From NCBI GenBank assembly GCA_018062135.1, contig JAGOSW010000003.1:29385-77487 (forward strand): a stretch of 48,103 bases of DNA. Direction: 5' to 3'. Made by a program: the position numbers and the translations under genes. The notes beneath the pieces are model-generated. The model made no database searches, was not told the DNA's origin, and worked only from the letters and a program-made list of their open reading frames with translations. Of this stretch, positions 31,438 to 40,613 are shown one piece after another. Each line of letters begins with the position of its first letter. The first letter of the stretch is position 1. Origin of the DNA: Candidatus Woesebacteria bacterium (GTDB taxonomy: Bacteria; Patescibacteriota; Microgenomatia; UBA1406; HO2-37-13b).

Positions 31438-33999
31438 ATGCGAAGATTCTCAAGACTGCAAAGACAAAAAATGGCACCCCTTGCATTGAAGGTAGCCCTT
31501 ATAGGTATTGTCTCGTTATTTGTATTGGGCTTACTTGTTTTTGTATTTTTCTCACGAAATTTACCAGAGCCAGGAAGTATTAAACGCAATACTGGTTTTT
31601 CTACAGTGATAACAGATAGAGATGGAAAAACTCTTTACGAGCTTTATGAAGACAAAAATAGAATTCCTATTCTTATTAAGGATGTGCCTCCTACTTTAAA
31701 ACAAGCCACCATAGCAATTGAAGATAAATCCTTCTATTCACATCAAGGATTTTCAACATGGGGCATTGTTCGTTCTGTATTCCGTATTTTTACAACAGGA
31801 AATCTTGTTAGTGGATCGACATTAACCCAACAACTTGTAAAGAATGTGCTTCTTACACAAGAACAAACGCTTACGCGCAAAGTAAAAGAAGTCGTTTTGG
31901 CTGTAGAAATAGAAAGGCGTTTTACGAAAGATGAAATTTTAGAAATGTATCTTAACGAATCACCATATGGTGGAACATTTTGGGGTGTTCAGTCTGCTTC
32001 AAAAGGATATTTCGACAAAGATGTAAAAGATTTGAATTTGTTAGAATCCGCAATTTTAGCGGGACTTCCACAAAGACCTTCGTATTACAATCCAATTTCT
32101 GGTAAGGAAAACTCATATAAAGGACGTACAGAAAACGTGTTAAGAAGAATGAGGGAAGATAAACATATTACAAAGGACCAAGAGAAAAAGGCGCTCGCTG
32201 ACTTACAGAAAATAAGTTTCAAGGACGCTCCTGGCGTTGCTATTGAAGCACCTCATTTTATTTTCTATGTGCGATCGCTCATCGCTGATAAATTTGGGGA
32301 AAAAATACTAGATCAAGGAATAAAAGTGAAGACGACTCTTTCATTGGAAGCTCAGAAAGAAGCAGAAAAGATTTTGAATGAAGAAATAAAAAAGGTAAAG
32401 TCGCTTGATGTTACGAACGGTTCAACGGTAGTTATGGATTCAAAGACTGGTGAGATTTTATCGATGGTCGGATCCTACGATTACAATGATGAAGAATTTG
32501 GCCGCTACAATACGGCGACCGCACTTCGACAGCCTGGCTCTGCCGTAAAGCCGATAACATATGCGGTCGCACTTGAACAAGGCTACACGCCATCATCGCT
32601 TGTGATGGACGTTTCTACGGAGTTTCCAGATCAGGGTGAGAAAACGTATACGCCAGTTAACTATGATGGAAAATTTAGAGGACCGGTACAGTATAGATTT
32701 GCTTTGGCAAATTCCCTGAATATTCCAGCAGTAAAGGTATTGGCAAACGTCGGCATACGTAATTTCTTGCAAAAGGCATTTGATATGGGGTTAACAAGTT
32801 TTGAGCCAACTCCGGCCAATATGAAGCGATTCGGATTAGCTATTACGCTTGGCGGTGGCGAGACCACGCTCTTAGATTTAACATCAGCGTTCTCTGTCTT
32901 TGCAAGAGGTGGTACGCGCATAGAGCCAATTTCTATTCTTGAAATTCGCGATCTTAAGGACAAGGTTATTTATAAGGCACCTGATCCAAAACCAAAAAAA
33001 GTTCTTTCAGAAGAAGTTTCGTTCTTAATTTCACACATTCTTTCTGATAATACAGCCCGATCTGAAGCTTTTGGATCAAATTCATTCTTGCGTATTCCTG
33101 GTAAGACCGTAGCCGTTAAGACAGGAACGACAAATGATAAGCGAGATAACTGGACTGTCGGTTATTCGAAAGAGGTAACAGTCGGCGTCTGGGTTGGAAA
33201 TAATGATAACTCTCCCATGAATCCAAAAGTAGCATCGGGTGTAACAGGTGCCTCCCCTATCTGGAATAGAATAATGAAAAATATGTTGAAAACATACAAA
33301 GATGGCATTCTTGAAAAACCTAAAGATGTTGAAGCTTTGCAAATTGATGCATTCTTGGGTGGATTACCAAAAGATGGTTATCCCATTCGTTCGGACTATT
33401 TCGTGAAAGGTACTGAACCTAAGGCAATTTCACCTTTCTACAAGAAACTGAAATTCTCAAAGAGTACAGGTAAGCTTGCGAATGATATAGAAATAAAAAC
33501 TGGCGACTATGACGAAAGAGATTTTATTGTGATCACTGAAGCCGATCCAGTATCTACTGATGGAAAAAATCGATGGCAAGAAGCAATTGAGGCTTGGGCA
33601 TATTCTCAGCCTGATGAAAAGTTCAAGCCGTCGCGAGATATCTCTGATTCAAAACAAGACGAGTTAGTTGTCTCAATTAGAGAACCAGGAAACGAGTCGC
33701 GAGTAAACTCGAATAATGTAAAAATTGTGGCAAAAATAACGTCCATTCAAGAGATTAGAAAAGTGGAAATTCAGGTAAATGGAAATACTGTAAAGACATT
33801 TAATGAAAACAAAAAAGATATTGAAGAAAACATCAATCTTTCTGACGGTACGTATGAAATAAGAATTATCGCGGAGAACTCTAAAGGATCACGAAAAGAT
33901 ACAGCTGTTCGTATTGGAGTAAATAAAGAATGGAATGAATCACAACCACAACCAACAGCAACGCCAGCGCCTACTGCTGAGGTAACGCCAGCTCCTTAA
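31438..33999 (+). CDS. Class A penicillin-binding protein (transglycosylase/transpeptidase)
   Basis: 853 aa. One N-terminal membrane helix (about 18-42). The GT51 domain has EDKSFYSHQGFS, SGSTLTQQLVKN, RKVKEVVLAVEIE and NESPYGGTFWGVQSA. The transpeptidase domain has the nucleophile motif PGSAVKP, SLN in ANSLNIPA, and KTGTTND. After about residue 740 an Ig-like domain (IREPGNESRV...VEIQVNGNTV) and a Pro/Thr/Ala-rich tail follow. It polymerises and crosslinks peptidoglycan. Leaderless-type start; the 3' end overlaps the convergent pheT by 29 bp. Confidence 0.94.
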   Translation: MRRFSRLQRQKMAPLALKVALIGIVSLFVLGLLVFVFFSRNLPEPGSIKRNTGFSTVITDRDGKTLYELYEDKNRIPILIKDVPPTLKQATIAIEDKSFYSHQGFSTWGIVRSVFRIFTTGNLVSGSTLTQQLVKNVLLTQEQTLTRKVKEVVLAVEIERRFTKDEILEMYLNESPYGGTFWGVQSASKGYFDKDVKDLNLLESAILAGLPQRPSYYNPISGKENSYKGRTENVLRRMREDKHITKDQEKKALADLQKISFKDAPGVAIEAPHFIFYVRSLIADKFGEKILDQGIKVKTTLSLEAQKEAEKILNEEIKKVKSLDVTNGSTVVMDSKTGEILSMVGSYDYNDEEFGRYNTATALRQPGSAVKPITYAVALEQGYTPSSLVMDVSTEFPDQGEKTYTPVNYDGKFRGPVQYRFALANSLNIPAVKVLANVGIRNFLQKAFDMGLTSFEPTPANMKRFGLAITLGGGETTLLDLTSAFSVFARGGTRIEPISILEIRDLKDKVIYKAPDPKPKKVLSEEVSFLISHILSDNTARSEAFGSNSFLRIPGKTVAVKTGTTNDKRDNWTVGYSKEVTVGVWVGNNDNSPMNPKVASGVTGASPIWNRIMKNMLKTYKDGILEKPKDVEALQIDAFLGGLPKDGYPIRSDYFVKGTEPKAISPFYKKLKFSKSTGKLANDIEIKTGDYDERDFIVITEADPVSTDGKNRWQEAIEAWAYSQPDEKFKPSRDISDSKQDELVVSIREPGNESRVNSNNVKIVAKITSIQEIRKVEIQVNGNTVKTFNENKKDIEENINLSDGTYEIRIIAENSKGSRKDTAVRIGVNKEWNESQPQPTATPAPTAEVTPAP

Positions 34000-35974
34000 C
34001 TTTATTTAGTTCATTCTCTGCTTCTTCTTCGTTCATGTTTTTATCCTGGTAGCCAAATTCCATGCGAACTGTAACTTTATCGTTGAAAATAGATATGACC
34101 TTGATGCTAAGAATATGTGGCGATGCCTTAAGCGCATTACTTGATAAATCTGCATACGTTATCTCAGGAGAAGAAGTATATGTCAGATCTCTTTTAACTT
34201 TTGAGAATTTTGAACTCTGGACATACTTACTAAATTTTTCCATGTGCTGTACTAAAGTTGCTAGAGATAGTTCTGCAACTACTATGGAACCCTGTGCATC
34301 CACAGCAGAGCTAACGCCTTGTTGTAATAGTCCAATGAAGCCGACTGTTTGGTCACCAATCTTAATTGTCGCTGAAGTTTGTACAGTTATGAAATCCTTC
34401 TGTGCGTTTGGTACGAATGCAACGTCTTTTATTTTCAGCATTGAAAAAATATTTTCAAGAACTCCCTTAACATATGAATAATCCTTTGTAGATACAAGGC
34501 TTAATGTTTCTTCTTCTTCAGGTAGGTCGTTCTGTCTAATCGCATATGTTCGTGCACATTCAAAGAAACTAAACTCATCTTGTCTTCCCTTGTTGTCTGC
34601 AATGTTTTTCGTAAGAGATGGAACAAGTGAGGTGCGCATATACTCAATTTCCTCAGAAATTGTGTTGGAAATATGGAGATGCTCCTCTTTCTTTAATTTA
34701 AATGCATTGATAAGTTTTTCGGAAATCATTGAATAGTTAAACTGTTCGTTAAACCCTATTGCACGTAGATATTCTCGAATCGTGGTTTGCGCATTAAATA
34801 CATTTTGCACTTCAAGAGGTTGTTCTATAATTTCTCCCATATGTAGCGAACTTGGAATGTTGCTGTAGCCATAAATACGAGCTATTTCTTCAACAATATC
34901 AGCTGGCCCTTCAATATCTTTAGTTCGGTAACTTGGAACTATAACAGTAAAAGATTGATCCTTAGGATCAACTAAGAACCCCAAAGGCTCTATCAGCTCC
35001 TTAACTTCTTGAGAAGTAACCTTTGTATTTGTAATGGTATGCACATACTCTAGTTCGACTAATATTTCGATTGGAGTATTCTTTTTTGGGTATATATCGT
35101 ATATCTTTGAACTTACTTTGGCGCCTGCATACTTTGTTAATAGCTCGATGCCGTATACTAATGTTGATTCAACTCTTTCTTCGTCAAGCCCTTTCTCAAA
35201 ATATGAAACCGCCATACTTCTTTGACCAGTTGTCATAGAAGTTTTTCTTAAGAGAAATTTATTGTACGTTTCGATAAAAAGTAAAACGCTCGTTGTATTC
35301 TCAGTAACGGCTGAAGTATAGCCACCCATGATGCCCGCTAGATCAATCAATTCGTCATTTCCATCTTCAACAACAATGTCTTCGCCAGGCAAAGTAAACT
35401 CTTTTTTATCAAGTGTCGTTATTGTTTCACCTTTTTTGCTTTTACGAATGAGCATTCTTCTCTTTCCAATTTTATCAAAATCAAAGGTGTGATTAGGTTG
35501 TCCCAAGGAGATCATTAAGTAGTTCGAAATGTCGACTACATTGTTAATAATACTAATTCCGCAGGCTTTTAATCTGTCCTGAATAAATTGAGGTGAAGGC
35601 CCAATAGTTATGCCATCAAGAATAACAGCAGATACGCGTGTTGCCAGATCATCTTCTTTCAAAGTAATGTCAACGTTGTGTGTACTTCCCTCTACTATTG
35701 TGTCGAAAGTCCATTCCTTCAAAGGATTCATCTTAATCACTGCTTTTTTACCATACTTCGGAAGAATTGCAGCGCACTCTAATGCAAAGCCAAATGCCGA
35801 AGCAGCGTCGATACGGTTCGAAGTAACTTCAATGTCGTACACATAATCATCACCCTCTTTTGTGACGGTTTCTACATTTGGACCGCCTAGTGATACGTAA
35901 TCTTGAATTTCTACTGGAGTAGCATCTGTGTCAAGATACTCCAGAAGCATATTGTGAGTAATTTTTATATTCAT
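33971..35974 (-). CDS. pheT: Phenylalanyl-tRNA synthetase beta subunit, short form
   Basis: 667 aa against about 800 in E. coli. YVYDIEVTSNRIDAASAFG follows within 65 residues of the start, so the EMAP-type tRNA-binding insertion (B2) is absent. B3/B4 editing and B5 (EEIARIYGYSNIP) regions are present, and the C-terminal ferredoxin-fold anticodon-binding domain is intact (KVKRDLTY...VRMEFGYQD). Follows pheS by one base. Confidence 0.94.
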   Translation of the reverse strand: MNIKITHNMLLEYLDTDATPVEIQDYVSLGGPNVETVTKEGDDYVYDIEVTSNRIDAASAFGFALECAAILPKYGKKAVIKMNPLKEWTFDTIVEGSTHNVDITLKEDDLATRVSAVILDGITIGPSPQFIQDRLKACGISIINNVVDISNYLMISLGQPNHTFDFDKIGKRRMLIRKSKKGETITTLDKKEFTLPGEDIVVEDGNDELIDLAGIMGGYTSAVTENTTSVLLFIETYNKFLLRKTSMTTGQRSMAVSYFEKGLDEERVESTLVYGIELLTKYAGAKVSSKIYDIYPKKNTPIEILVELEYVHTITNTKVTSQEVKELIEPLGFLVDPKDQSFTVIVPSYRTKDIEGPADIVEEIARIYGYSNIPSSLHMGEIIEQPLEVQNVFNAQTTIREYLRAIGFNEQFNYSMISEKLINAFKLKKEEHLHISNTISEEIEYMRTSLVPSLTKNIADNKGRQDEFSFFECARTYAIRQNDLPEEEETLSLVSTKDYSYVKGVLENIFSMLKIKDVAFVPNAQKDFITVQTSATIKIGDQTVGFIGLLQQGVSSAVDAQGSIVVAELSLATLVQHMEKFSKYVQSSKFSKVKRDLTYTSSPEITYADLSSNALKASPHILSIKVISIFNDKVTVRMEFGYQDKNMNEEEAENELNKVKELALPQQ

Positions 35975-35975
35975 A

Positions 35976-36992
35976 TTAGAATTGTTTTAGAAAATCTAGT
36001 TCCCCAGAATATATAACGCGTAAGTCAGGAATAGAAACGCCCCCACGCATCATAGCAACGCGCTCAACACCAAAACCAAATGCCCAACCAGTATATTTTT
36101 CCGGGTCTACTCCGCCCGCTTTTAGTACGTTGGGATGGACCATGCCAGCTCCTCCAAGTTCGAGCCACCCAGCCCGACCAAGCGACTCCGTATTAGTATA
36201 GATGTCTACTTCAAAAGATGGTTCGGTAAAGCGAAAGTCATATGGCCTTAGGCGAATCTTGCATTCTCTGCCAAAGAATTCTTTAACAAAATATTCGATT
36301 GCACCTTTGAGATGTGAGATGTTTATGCCCTTATCGATGCAGAGGCCTTCGAATTGATGAAAGATGGGAGTGTGTGTACTGTCCCAATTTGGTCTGTACG
36401 TACGCGAAATATTTATCATACGTACTGGTGGTTTTTCGCGTCGCATCATTTCACGGACTTGTCCGGAAGATGTGTGTGGCGTCAGAAGCATTTTTCCATA
36501 CTTCTCGCTTTCTGGCGCGTCGATAAAGAACGTTTCGAAATCATCGCGAGCAGGATGCACTTTTGGCATGTTAAGAGAGTCGAATGCATACCATTCCCAT
36601 TCAACTTCTGGGTATGACATATTAATAAAGCCAATTTTCGAATATATGTCACGAATGTCTTTTATTGTTTGGGAAACAATATGTAGGCTCCCAAGATCCT
36701 GCGCAACACCTGGGAGCGTAGGATCAGTCCATGTTTTTGAATCTTCTTTTACTAGAAGTGTTTTTCGTGTTGCGGCAACGTTTTCTTCTACGTGTGCCTT
36801 TAGAGCATTAATTTTTTCGCCAGCAGATTTAATTTCATCGGGCGATAGCTCTTTGAGTTTTGAAAAAAGACTATTTAGTTTGCCTTTGCGGCCAAGGAAT
36901 TCTGTTTCGAGGTTCTGAAGGTCTTGGAGAGTAGAAATAGCGGCGAGTTCTTTCTTTAACGATTGTTGTATGCTCGCCAACTCATCGTCCAT
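35976..36992 (-). CDS. pheS: Phenylalanyl-tRNA synthetase alpha subunit
   Basis: 338 aa class II aaRS. N-terminal coiled coil (1-85), then HPARDDFETFFI, motif 2 MINISRTYRPNWDSTHTPIFHQFEGL (here GRxYR is SRTYR), and motif 3 GWAFGFGVERVAMMRGGV. Normal length and active-site blocks. Lies 8 bp after rplT. Confidence 0.96.
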   Translation of the reverse strand: MDDELASIQQSLKKELAAISTLQDLQNLETEFLGRKGKLNSLFSKLKELSPDEIKSAGEKINALKAHVEENVAATRKTLLVKEDSKTWTDPTLPGVAQDLGSLHIVSQTIKDIRDIYSKIGFINMSYPEVEWEWYAFDSLNMPKVHPARDDFETFFIDAPESEKYGKMLLTPHTSSGQVREMMRREKPPVRMINISRTYRPNWDSTHTPIFHQFEGLCIDKGINISHLKGAIEYFVKEFFGRECKIRLRPYDFRFTEPSFEVDIYTNTESLGRAGWLELGGAGMVHPNVLKAGGVDPEKYTGWAFGFGVERVAMMRGGVSIPDLRVIYSGELDFLKQF

Positions 36993-37000
36993 AGACGCTA

Positions 37001-37345
37001 TTATTTTTGTACTGATTCTACAATTTTTTTAAATATCTCTGGCTTTTCTGCAGCGAAATGTGCCAGAATCTTTCTGTCGAGTAAAATGTTTTCAGTTTTT
37101 AAGTTATTGATAAACGTACTGTAGTTTGTTCCAAGTTGATGTAATCCCGCATTAATGCGCGTGATCCATAATTGTCTGAAGTTTCTCTTTCGTAGTTTGC
37201 GACCCATAAAAGCATATTCACCTGCGTGAAGCACTGCTTGTGTCGCAACACCTATCTGCTTGCGTCGGGTCATTCTATATCCCTTTGCTAAATCAAGGAT
37301 CTTTTTATGACTCGCTTTTGTTCTCGTTCCGCCTTTAATTCTCAT
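37001..37345 (-). CDS. rplT: 50S ribosomal protein L20
   Basis: 114 aa. The N-terminus MRIKGGTRTKASHKKILDLA is shifted from the usual MARVKRGV but YRMTRRKQI, FMGRKLRKRNFRQLWITRINAG and KILAHFAAEKPEIFKKIV are classical bL20. Overlaps rpmI by 4 bp (ATGA). Confidence 0.96.
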   Translation of the reverse strand: MRIKGGTRTKASHKKILDLAKGYRMTRRKQIGVATQAVLHAGEYAFMGRKLRKRNFRQLWITRINAGLHQLGTNYSTFINNLKTENILLDRKILAHFAAEKPEIFKKIVESVQK

Positions 37346-37539
37346 ATGCCTAACATCTTTTTAATTTTTTCTTTCTGAACACCAAATACTTCTTTCATTA
37401 TTTTTTGTGCGCGCAATCGTCTATTTGACTTATTGCTCTTTAAGTGGCGCACACCATGGCCACGATGCAAAATTTTGCCTGTTCCAGTCACTTTAAAGCG
37501 CTTGGTGGCCGCATTTCTTGTTTTTAATTTTGTTTTCAT
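37342..37539 (-). CDS. rpmI: 50S ribosomal protein L35
   Basis: 65 aa. MKTKLKTRNAATKRFKVTGTGKI is the standard bL35 start, followed by HRGHGVRHLKSNKSNRRLR. Normal length; 2 bp after infC, in the order infC-rpmI-rplT. Confidence 0.95.
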   Translation of the reverse strand: MKTKLKTRNAATKRFKVTGTGKILHRGHGVRHLKSNKSNRRLRAQKIMKEVFGVQKEKIKKMLGI

Positions 37540-37541
37540 AT

Positions 37542-38081
37542 TTAAGATTTACTTTTCCTAACAACAACTGCCATGATTACTTTTCCTTGCATCTTCGGCT
37601 CTACAGCTACCGTTGCGTCTTCGATTGTAGCGATAAAGCTACGAATAAGCTGGTGTGCCATATCTGTCTTCCCAAGCTGCCTCCCTCTCAATGGGAGCTT
37701 TACACGAACCTGGAATCCATCTGCCAAAAACTCATGAGTTTTCTTCTTCAACCTTTCGAGATCTTGATCACCTATAAAGAGGGAAAGTTGGATGTCTTTT
37801 GTTCCACCTTTTTTTTGTCCCTTCTTACTTTCCTTATTTTTCTTTTCCTCTTGGTAAAGAAACTTATGGAAATCAATTGCCTTTATCACCTGCGGTTTCG
37901 CATGTGGTGCAATTAAAATCAAGTCTACTTCGTTTTCTCGGGCGTAATCCAGTGCTTCTGCTCTGGTAAACATCCCTAATTGCTCTCCTTTTTCGTCAAT
38001 GAGTCTAAATGTGTCTCCTTGAATGCGCTCATTTGTTACGTATCTTCTTTGGAGCGAATTCGCGTTAGATTGGCTTCTCAA
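37542..38081 (-). CDS. infC: Translation initiation factor IF-3
   Basis: 179 aa. N-domain VTNERIQGDTFRLIDEKGEQLG..AL; linker DFHKFLYQEEKKNKESKKGQKK; C-domain VRVKLPLRGRQL and PKMQGKVIMAVVV. There is no in-frame ATG before the N-domain: the start is TTG at 38081, or the ATT codon directly before it (38084-38082). Non-ATG starts are the known basis of IF-3 autoregulation in other bacteria. Overlaps the thrS end by 17 bp. Confidence 0.94.
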   Translation of the reverse strand: MRSQSNANSLQRRYVTNERIQGDTFRLIDEKGEQLGMFTRAEALDYARENEVDLILIAPHAKPQVIKAIDFHKFLYQEEKKNKESKKGQKKGGTKDIQLSLFIGDQDLERLKKKTHEFLADGFQVRVKLPLRGRQLGKTDMAHQLIRSFIATIEDATVAVEPKMQGKVIMAVVVRKSKS

Positions 38082-39816
38082 AATGTGTTTTGTTTTGCTT
38101 TATGAACTCGTAAAGACTCATTTGTCCTAAATCCTTCCCATCACGGGAACGAAGGGAAAGCGTTTTACTTTGGCTTTCCTTCTGGCCTATTATACACAGA
38201 TACGGAACCTTTTGCAATGTCCAACGTCTGATTTTCGCTGAGAGAGTCTTGTTGTCATAGTCGGCTATAACCCGTACTCCTTCAGCCTTCATTCCCTCAT
38301 AAATTTCCTTCGCATATTCATGCTCAGTCTCACTTATCGGGATGATTACAATCTGTGTCGGTGCAAGCCATGCTGGGAATATTCCCGCTGTATGCTCTAT
38401 ATACACTGACAAAAATCGTTCAAGAGAGCCCATAAGTGCAAAGTGAATCATGACGGGCGTCTGTTCTTTGCCATCAGCATCTGTATATTCAAGACCAAAT
38501 CGTTTCGGTTGCACAAAATCAAGCTGTGGCGTTGCCAACTGCCATTCGCGGCCCAAAGCATCGCTTACCATAAAATCAATTTTGGGCCCATAGAAAGCTG
38601 CCTCGCCTTCGGCGACATAATAATCAAGATCATTCTTTTTAGCGATCTCTAGAATTGTATCTTGTGCTAATGTCCAAAGAGCTTCTTCACCCAAATACTT
38701 TTCCGGCTGTGCAGGATCTCTAAATGATAATCGCGCGCGATACTTCATTCCTAGCACATCATAAAACTTCTTCGTAATATCAATAAGCTCTTGGTACACC
38801 TCAGAAATTTGATCCGGTGTACAAAAGGTATGGCTATCATCTTGCGTTACTGAACGCACCCGCGAAAGTCCAAGAAGCTCACCTGCCTTTTCATCACGAT
38901 AAATTGTCGTTGTTTCCATGTACTTGATAGGAAGCTCCTTATAGCTATGTGGTCGCGATGCATAAATTTGCTGATGATGTGGGCAATTCATTGGCTTCAT
39001 GACAAGCTCATCACTTGTCTCTTGGCTTTTCACAAGAAACAACTCATCGCCAAACTTATCCCAATGGCCAGATGTTTGGTAGAGCTCTTTTTTAGTAATA
39101 TGTGGAACCCATACACGTTCGAATCCTCTATCTAAGCGTAGTTTCTGCGAAAATTCATTTAGTAATTCACGTAATAATGCTCCACGAGGAGTAAATAATG
39201 GCAAGCCTTTCCCTACTAAGTCAGAGAACACGAAAAGGTCAAGTTCTGTCCCAAGCTTTCTGTGATCACGTTTCTTAGCCTCCTCGAGCATCATTAAATG
39301 CGCTTCAAGTTCTTCTTTTGTGGGAAAGCACGTTCCATAAATACGTGTGAGCATCGTGTTCTTTTCATTACCTCTCCAGTATGCCCCAGCGACAGAAAGG
39401 AGCTTAAAATGCTTCAGGGCATCTTTAGGATTATCAATATGACCGCCTTTGCATAAATCTCTATAAGTGCCAGATTTATAAAAGCTTAGTTTCTTCGACC
39501 CTCCCTCAGAAAATTCATCAATAAGCTCATGCTTGTATGGATTGTCTGGATAGTCTGCTTTCGCTTCATCAGATGATAATTCAACCATTTCAAACGAATC
39601 CCATGTTTTTAAGATCTCACGCATTTTTTGTTCAATCCTTGAAAAATCATCACCAGATATAGGGTTCTCAAATTCAAAGTCGAAGTAGAAGCCGTTTTCA
39701 ATCGCCGGTCCAATGGTTCGCTTTGTGCTAGGCCAAATGTCCATAACGGCAGCTGCTAATAAATGCGCACACGAATGACGAAGGTTGTTAAGGTGTTCCT
39801 GATTTTTATTATCCAT
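38065..39816 (-). CDS. thrS: Threonyl-tRNA synthetase lacking the TGS domain
   Basis: 583 aa against about 640 in E. coli. It begins at the editing domain: HSCAHLLAAAV (HxxxH) near residue 13 and CKGGHIDNP near 121 are the editing/zinc motifs. The catalytic core has LMKPMNCPHHQQIY, METTTIYRDE, SRVRSVTQDDSHTF and IHFALMGSLERF. The C-terminal anticodon domain is present (QIVIIPISETEHEYA). The N-terminal TGS domain is missing. Its transcription is predicted to be controlled by the Thr-codon attenuator upstream. Confidence 0.95.
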   Translation of the reverse strand: MDNKNQEHLNNLRHSCAHLLAAAVMDIWPSTKRTIGPAIENGFYFDFEFENPISGDDFSRIEQKMREILKTWDSFEMVELSSDEAKADYPDNPYKHELIDEFSEGGSKKLSFYKSGTYRDLCKGGHIDNPKDALKHFKLLSVAGAYWRGNEKNTMLTRIYGTCFPTKEELEAHLMMLEEAKKRDHRKLGTELDLFVFSDLVGKGLPLFTPRGALLRELLNEFSQKLRLDRGFERVWVPHITKKELYQTSGHWDKFGDELFLVKSQETSDELVMKPMNCPHHQQIYASRPHSYKELPIKYMETTTIYRDEKAGELLGLSRVRSVTQDDSHTFCTPDQISEVYQELIDITKKFYDVLGMKYRARLSFRDPAQPEKYLGEEALWTLAQDTILEIAKKNDLDYYVAEGEAAFYGPKIDFMVSDALGREWQLATPQLDFVQPKRFGLEYTDADGKEQTPVMIHFALMGSLERFLSVYIEHTAGIFPAWLAPTQIVIIPISETEHEYAKEIYEGMKAEGVRVIADYDNKTLSAKIRRWTLQKVPYLCIIGQKESQSKTLSLRSRDGKDLGQMSLYEFIKQNKTHFEKPI

Positions 39817-39861: not shown

Positions 39862-39882
39862 AAAAAAACCCGCCGAAGCGGG
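39862..39882 (-). terminator. Attenuator terminator upstream of thrS
   Basis: CCCGC (39882-39878), UUCG tetraloop, GCGGG (39873-39869), then seven U (39868-39862) on the minus strand. It lies 46 nt before the thrS ATG and would abort transcription before thrS unless the antiterminator forms. Confidence 0.92.
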
Positions 39883-39933
39883 GGTCCTAGCTTTCTGCAC
39901 GTGCAGACAGACCACCGCTTATTGCGGGGTGGT
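39878..39933 (-). promoter_or_regulatory. Mutually exclusive hairpins of the thrS attenuator
   Basis: The 1:2 hairpin pairs ACCA-CC-CCGC (39933-39924, CC bulged) with GCGGTGGT (39918-39911) around AATAA, which contains the leader-peptide stop. The antiterminator 2:3 pairs GCGGTGGTC (39918-39910) with GACCCCCGC (39886-39878), 8 of 9 pairs, and consumes the 5' half of the terminator stem. A self-complementary TCTGC-ACGT-GCAGA hairpin (39907-39894) lies in the 2:3 loop. This is the trp/thr-type logic: stalling at Thr codons frees region 2. Confidence 0.85.
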
Positions 39934-39972
39934 AGTAGTACTTACACTCGAGACGATGTTTTGTTTGATCAT
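39919..39972 (-). CDS. thrS leader peptide (17 aa, four consecutive Thr codons)
   Basis: Peptide MIKQNIVSSVSTTTTPQ, with Thr codons ACT ACT ACC ACC at 39939-39928 placed just before and within hairpin region 1, and the TAA stop in the loop of the 1:2 hairpin. This placement is what ribosome-mediated attenuation requires. The ATG lies eight bases after the -10 box, so the leader mRNA is practically leaderless. With charged tRNA-Thr the ribosome reaches the stop and masks region 2, so the terminator forms. Confidence 0.88.
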   Translation of the reverse strand: MIKQNIVSSVSTTTTPQ

Positions 39973-39980
39973 TGAAAAGA

Positions 39981-39989
39981 ATTATACCA
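39981..39989 (-). promoter_or_regulatory. Extended -10 promoter of the thrS operon
   Basis: TGGTATAAT on minus (39989-39981), eight bases before the leader-peptide ATG. No good -35 is visible, as expected for an extended -10 promoter. From here to 40098 I see no gene, only the short repeated motif TGTAGTACT (about 40014 and 40072). Confidence 0.7.
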
Positions 39990-40518: not shown

Positions 40519-40539
40519 ATAGTAATTGTAGCAATTTTG

Positions 40540-40613
40540 TGGTCGCTAAGGGACTCGAACCCCTGACCTTTGCAATGTCAATGCAACGCTCTAACCAGCT
40601 GAGCTAAGCGACC
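40540..40613 (-). tRNA. tRNA-Val (GAC anticodon)
   Basis: Acceptor GGTCGCT/AGCGACC, D-arm GCTC/GAGC, anticodon stem TTGCA/TGCAA around TTGACAT (anticodon GAC), T-arm with TTCGAGT. Discriminator A; CCA is not encoded. Confidence 0.95.

Follow-up and report, generated by a model that had tools for sequence, protein, structure and literature searches.

The thrS operon and its leader

The stretch of DNA analysed here, called the window throughout, is 48,103 nucleotides long and belongs to an ultra-small, uncultured bacterium of the CPR. It carries on its minus strand the following series of genes.

38065..39816, minus strand: thrS, threonine--tRNA ligase (NCBIfam TIGR00418, 633 bits)
37542..38081, minus strand: infC, IF-3, an ORF that overlaps thrS by 17 nt (NCBIfam TIGR00168, 130 bits)
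37342..37539, minus strand: rpmI, L35 (NCBIfam TIGR00001, 48.5 bits, slightly below the cut-off of 51.2)
37001..37345, minus strand: rplT, L20, overlapping rpmI by 4 nt (NCBIfam TIGR01032, 126.5 bits)
35976..36992, minus strand: pheS (NCBIfam TIGR00468, 250 bits)
33971..35974, minus strand: pheT (NCBIfam TIGR00472, 438 bits)

A first-pass annotation, made from the sequence of the window, had read these genes as one operon, thrS-infC-rpmI-rplT-pheS-pheT, and the NCBIfam models agree: thrS, infC, rplT, pheS and pheT score above their cut-offs, rpmI being the exception. Both pheS and pheT lie within 10 nt of the gene that precedes them. Further upstream, at 40539-40613 on the minus strand, is a tRNA-Val(GAC) gene. 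Many relatives have such a gene 5' of their thrS leader as well (L004, L005, L013, L018, L022, L185), and at two of these loci, L013 and L185, the ATG of the leader shares bases with the CCA end encoded by the tRNA gene (CCATG).

The region 5' of thrS contains the following elements.

39981..39989, minus strand: extended -10 element TGGTATAAT, its last base 8 nt 5' of the leader ATG (sequence)
39919..39972, minus strand: leader peptide ORF of 17 amino acids, MIKQNIVSSVSTTTTPQ, followed by TAA (sequence; Thr-rich leaders stand in the same place in relatives)
39928..39939, minus strand: control codons ACT ACT ACC ACC, four threonines, the putative stall site (sequence)
39924..39933, minus strand: region 1, ACCACCCCGC, overlapping the last Thr codons (1:2 hairpin with region 2 when folded alone)
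39910..39918, minus strand: region 2, GCGGTGGTC, directly 3' of the stop codon, 5' strand of the antiterminator (8 of 9 pairs with region 3)
39895..39906, minus strand: palindrome CTGCACGTGCAG, a hairpin within the antiterminator loop (predicted fold)
39878..39886, minus strand: region 3, GACCCCCGC, common to antiterminator and terminator (fold and sequence)
39862..39882, minus strand: intrinsic terminator CCCGC-TTCG-GCGGG-TTTTTTT, that is, the 3:4 hairpin and a U tract of seven (terminator scan)

The leader codons are ATG ATC AAA CAA AAC ATC GTC TCG AGT GTA AGT ACT ACT ACC ACC CCG CAA TAA. Folded in isolation, the 1:2 hairpin ACCACCCCGC-AATAA-GCGGTGGT has an energy of -10.0 kcal/mol, and the TAA of the leader lies inside its loop. 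The sequence bears out the first-pass annotation at every point compared: a 17-residue leader with the run ACT ACT ACC ACC overlaps region 1 and stops in the 1:2 loop, and region 2 can form 8 of 9 pairs with the 5' half of a UUCG-capped terminator. This terminator is the sole terminator-like site in the region scanned, and a gap of 45 nt separates it from the thrS start (39816), which stays outside both hairpins. The hairpin of the palindrome CTGCACGTGCAG is absent from the spacers of those relatives listed in the spacer comparison. The fold of the window leader is moderately better than those of shuffled sequences (z = -2.0); with a single leader just two standard deviations beyond the shuffles, the weight of evidence falls on conservation.

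A probable leaderless start, and codon choice

On the leader strand, a scan for consensus promoters finds no passing site, because a good -35 element is missing. Since the extended -10 element ends 8 nt 5' of the ATG, the transcript is probably leaderless: it likely begins at the ATG, or 1-2 nt from it. A -10-like hexamer ending 6-8 nt 5' of the ATG, with a peak at 7, is present in 26 of 44 leaders, and an SD-like motif in merely 2 of the 44.

The codons ACC and ACT, which are those read by tRNA-Thr(GGU), make up 149 of the 182 Thr codons of the leaders, versus 295 of 543 in the thrS genes. This preference may also stem from a requirement for RNA pairing.

Threonine codons upstream of thrS

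We collected 240 thrS upstream regions from relatives of the window, its class of Patescibacteria (which supplies most of them), the whole phylum, and GTDB species genomes. The criteria were an intrinsic terminator within the final 220 nt and, 5-75 nt before it, the end of an ORF with three or more Thr per 6 codons. A terminator is found in 53 of the 240 regions, and a Thr-rich ORF precedes it in 39 of these 53. The same count made for other amino acids yields 7 for Leu and at most 4 for every other one, in the same 53 regions. When at least 4 in 6 codons are required, the count is 31/53 for Thr and at most 2 for any other amino acid. Among the 187 regions without a terminator, 16 pass the limit of 3 Thr per 6 codons and 4 pass that of 4. 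Two of the loci, L092 and L178, turn out to be one genome, thus 39/53 should read 38/52. An earlier and smaller control gave Thr runs of at least 3 in 16 of 99 upstream regions, and 3 for the next amino acid. The first-pass annotation had staked its reading on the conservation of the Thr codons, a terminator kept without them being the observation that would speak against it: in 39 of the 53 terminator-bearing leaders the Thr-rich ORF is kept.

The Thr leaders span nine or more families within the class to which the window belongs, and many thrS genes of this class have no Thr leader of such kind. Past the Thr run, the leader peptides bear no similarity to each other, as the examples MKKEIKFTTTTIS, MNKYILINTTTTFSC, MFIMKFVSIITTTTAF and MSTTTRTTTTILPL illustrate. 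This is the pattern expected of selection on the control codons rather than on the peptide.

Co-variation of regions 2 and 3

Pairing was studied in a set of 40 terminator-bearing leaders: 38 were picked by their Thr-rich ORF and terminator, none by region 2, and the other two, L005 and L010, which have just two Thr codons close together, were added by eye. A MAFFT alignment of 23 leaders was dropped because its helices were poorly registered; pair counts are thus not taken from it, and swap and permutation tests are used instead.

In these 40 leaders, the median distance from the first base of the stop codon to the start of region 2 is 3 nt. Compared with dinucleotide-shuffled spacers, the strand that follows the stop shows better pairing to the terminator's 5' arm, with a mean z of -2.4. 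The preference is for the leader's own arm: region 2 binds it at -11.96 kcal/mol, versus -9.40 when arms are swapped between leaders, and none of 5,000 permutations does as well. It also holds in a reduced set, where each combination of family and arm type is represented by a single sequence (n = 25). All six of six core pairs form with the own arm in 25 of 40 leaders, versus 23% of foreign arms, and the arms entering this comparison are diverse: CCCTCC, CCCCGC, CTCTCC, CCACGC, GTCCCC, CCTCCT. The co-variation of regions 2 and 3, on which the earlier reading had also made itself dependent, is thus present. For regions 1 and 2, the reduced set gives weak co-variation (P = 0.04).

Modelled ribosome positions

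For each codon at which a ribosome may stand, we computed the probability of the terminator stem on the RNA that the ribosome leaves free. The model consists of equilibrium folds of this free RNA, and ignores co-transcriptional folding. Averaged over the 40 leaders, the terminator probability is 0.20 with the first Thr codon in the A-site, 0.17 with the second, 0.41 with the last, and 0.96 with the stop codon. In leaders with shuffled spacers the values are 0.79 at the second Thr codon and 0.87 at the stop. The outcome of the model is stable over footprints of 10-16 nt.

Suppression of the terminator is strongest for a ribosome stalled 4 to 8 codons before the stop, and the Thr codons of the 40 leaders cluster 3-8 codons before the stop, mostly at the most suppressing positions. 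Five of the 40, for example L008 and L243, give no clear switch in the model. For the window leader, the probabilities are 0.01, 0.08 and 0.12 at Thr codons 1-3, 0.98 at the fourth (13-nt footprint), and 0.95 at the stop: the fourth Thr codon lets the terminator form, which leaves the first three as the sole control codons of the model.

Without a ribosome, 35 of the 40 leaders give a terminator probability above 0.5. The RNA of the window, in the same computation, forms the antiterminator and not the 1:2 and 3:4 hairpins, with a terminator probability of 0.00. The default-off state of most relatives is therefore not predicted for the window leader which, left untranslated, might read through. 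Of the full trp/thr-type logic proposed by the first-pass annotation, the Thr leader, the terminator, the co-variation of regions 2 and 3 and the geometry stand; the 1:2 hairpin is weak in the window, and is not predicted to prevail in its ribosome-free RNA.

A probable switch sensing charged tRNA-Thr

The leader is very probably a ribosome-mediated transcription attenuator of the trp/thr/pheST type, which senses charged tRNA-Thr and controls thrS, and probably infC-rpmI-rplT-pheST too. This reading draws on the parts found at the locus, on their conservation in many genomes, on the co-variation of region 2 with region 3, and on the placement of the Thr codons relative to region 2.

Transcription would begin at the leader ATG or next to it, with a ribosome translating the leader close behind the RNA polymerase. 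When Thr-tRNA is scarce, this ribosome would stall on meeting the first Thr codons, and its leading edge would stop short of region 2; region 2, being free, would pair with region 3, no terminator would form, and thrS would be transcribed. When Thr-tRNA is ample, the ribosome would reach the stop codon and cover region 2, regions 3 and 4 would pair, and transcription would halt at the U tract, 45 nt 5' of thrS. In this way, a shortage of charged tRNA-Thr would raise the expression of thrS, and presumably of the genes that follow it.

Other loci

Among the 25 leader loci with enough flanking sequence, 18 have infC immediately 3' of thrS, versus 33 of 93 other loci. A strict scan of a further 67 thrS loci, taken from the whole phylum and nearly all out of the class, finds no leader with terminator. 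By eye, the out-of-class locus L379 (genome G382) is convincing: its leader MHRPLTTTATTTTSV is followed by a region 2, TCTGTGTGAGGAGGGC, complementary to GCCCTTCCTCACAGA, so that this thrS leader has a long complementarity of region 2 with region 3, and a U tract. In Enhygromyxa salina (L102), a myxococcote, an ORF with six threonines, MAAVRHILAPLRAALTTTTTTA, precedes thrS, possibly an independent Thr attenuator in another phylum. Loci L046, L088 and L377 have a Thr-run ORF, then a short hairpin at the stop codon, and no recognisable terminator; their leaders are perhaps decayed, or act at the level of translation.

Other Patescibacteria, mainly Saccharibacteria, carry the T-box-like motif GGTGGAACC 90-320 nt 5' of thrS; these loci include L034, L041, L045, L049, L050, L052, L058, L060, L063, L069, L070, L072, L076 and L087. 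The Rfam T-box score of L049, 13.2 bits, is far under the threshold, thus we label them T-box-like only. They are possibly divergent T-boxes, providing an alternative control of the same gene.

In close relatives, 30 loci of the Val/Ile-type synthetase family and 30 of the Trp/Tyr family have no leader with terminator: in this sample, the arrangement is therefore specific to thrS. Upstream of valS, at loci L276, L277, L280, L254 and L279, a conserved stretch TTTAGATTGAAA..CAA..TTTGATATATTTG stands just 5' of the ATG; it looks like the promoter of a leaderless valS mRNA.

Models of thrC (threonine synthase) and thrB (homoserine kinase) find nothing in the genome of the window, which is 82% complete. 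A cell dependent on imported threonine would clearly benefit from sensing how far its tRNA-Thr is charged. In some relatives thrC is present. In two genomes, the distance from thrS to a downstream thrC is about 0.9 kb: in G030 (locus L010), where infC is not found, and in G017, on the same strand. At such loci, an attenuator of thrS could also act on a biosynthetic gene.

Alternative explanations

The terminator might be of the common kind that closes a gene, or serve as a brake on read-through, with a Thr-rich frame in front of it that arose by chance. The modest advantage of the window's fold over shuffles (z = -2.0) and the 14 of 53 thrS terminators without a Thr ORF are what one would expect then. 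However, 39 of 53 is far from the 7 or fewer obtained for other amino acids, region 2 co-varies with region 3, and the Thr codons sit at the positions that a switch requires: an accident is extremely unlikely. It is also very unlikely that the leader works by something other than codon hunger, be it nascent-chain arrest or a translational coupling that acts on the translation of thrS instead of its transcription. Such a mechanism would accommodate the Thr-run ORFs found before thrS without a recognisable terminator (L046, L088, L377), but the peptide is unconserved outside the Thr run, a U-tract terminator with a competing antiterminator exists in the window and in the 40 leaders, and both hairpins leave the thrS start outside. 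A T-box riboswitch, reading uncharged tRNA-Thr directly, comes to mind given the T-box-like motif GGTGGAACC, which 17 of about 105 other loci and 9 of 67 out-of-class loci carry 5' of thrS. Yet the Rfam T-box model (RF00230) matches neither the window at the gathering threshold nor the surroundings of the leader at E-values up to 10, and the segment of about 110 nt that joins the likely start to the terminator is taken up almost wholly by the leader ORF and the hairpins. We consider a T-box at this locus next to impossible.

A different kind of objection, compatible with attenuation by Thr codons, concerns its reach: the switch may govern mainly thrS, and infC-rpmI-rplT-pheST may have promoters of their own, or an L20-type control. 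In E. coli, the same operon contains internal promoters and separate controls. Moreover, infC was not found directly 3' of thrS in 7 of the 25 leader loci, which makes thrS the constant partner. In the window, on the other hand, the overlaps measure 17 nt between thrS and infC and 4 nt between rpmI and rplT, and gaps of at most 10 nt precede pheS and pheT; with such overlaps and short gaps, read-through into infC-pheT is expected, and from them we infer that the attenuator would reach these genes. A control limited mainly to thrS seems rather unlikely to us, but is a serious possibility.

Comparison with known systems

No known leader or T-box is matched by Rfam in the window at the gathering threshold; in particular, the Thr_leader family (RF00506) is unmatched there, as well as around the leader at E-values up to 10. 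The Thr attenuator of thrS nevertheless has familiar relatives. With the enterobacterial thr (thrL-thrABC) and trp systems it shares a leader with a codon run, a predicted choice between 2:3 and 3:4 pairing next to a 1:2 hairpin that is weak in the window, a Rho-independent terminator, and the proposed logic of stall versus stop. It differs from them by its target, which is a tRNA synthetase operon where theirs are biosynthetic, by an apparently leaderless transcript, and by having just four Thr codons. In E. coli, the pheM-pheST attenuator, whose leader contains Phe codons, is located inside the thrS-infC-rpmI-rplT-pheST operon, before pheS. The proposed mechanism, the type of operon and the genes are the same, but the CPR leader is coded in Thr and placed before thrS, 5' of all six genes. 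The T-box of thrS in Firmicutes and the translational operator of thrS in E. coli control the same gene for the same physiological purpose, with other sensors: a tRNA for the T-box and the ThrRS protein for the operator, versus the stalled ribosome proposed for the CPR leader.

In 2010, most genomes of CPR bacteria were not yet available. For operons of aminoacyl-tRNA synthetases, attenuators were predicted in that year (Lopatovskaya et al. 2010, Mol Biol 44:128, as cited in PMC4833913) and, as far as this citation tells, they belong to the same regulatory class, 5' of synthetase genes. Attenuators are also known for leuS and trpS in Streptomyces, and for pheST in gamma-proteobacteria (PMC1262725). 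The closest precedent is the thrL leader before thrS in Streptomyces lividans: it is leaderless, encodes the peptide MKRVRPFLETTPGFVPAR with two Thr codons, and is reported with no clear Rho-independent terminator (PMC8079986). Like the CPR leader, whose transcript is probably leaderless too, it is a Thr-containing leader peptide 5' of thrS; unlike it, it has two Thr codons, no clear terminator reported, and no infC operon described, in a distant phylum. The first-pass annotation had called a Thr attenuator of thrS apparently undescribed, and this precedent narrows the claim. For CPR bacteria it seems to stand: a literature search, with Lopatovskaya et al. 2010 outside its scope, returned nothing that joins CPR or Patescibacteria with attenuation or leader peptides. 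The mechanism is a known one; the CPR leaders are a widespread case of it, apparently undescribed in CPR bacteria until now.

Significance for CPR bacteria

Little is known of gene regulation in CPR bacteria, most of which are unculturable. Here, the hallmarks of a codon-stall switch recur with altered sequence and unchanged logic, and thrS appears to be under a peptide attenuator in some members of the phylum, and seemingly under T-box-like leaders in others. It is tempting to conjecture that ribosome-mediated attenuation by a leaderless Thr-coded leader is the usual way of controlling thrS across much of one CPR class, with Thr-tRNA charging gauging the production of the translation machinery; we hold this tentatively, as a possibility on the weaker side of even. 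Charging of tRNA-Thr could serve as such a general gauge, given the place of thrS at the head of an operon that also encodes IF-3, L35, L20 and PheRS.

If the conjecture is true, the gauge would serve cells without recognisable threonine synthesis genes, as in the genome of the window, and the leaders would constitute sequence evidence for a tight coupling of transcription and translation in CPR bacteria. The thrS leader itself makes two ideas directly testable in CPR cells: that ribosomes run close behind the RNA polymerase, and that amino acids are sensed through the charging of tRNA.
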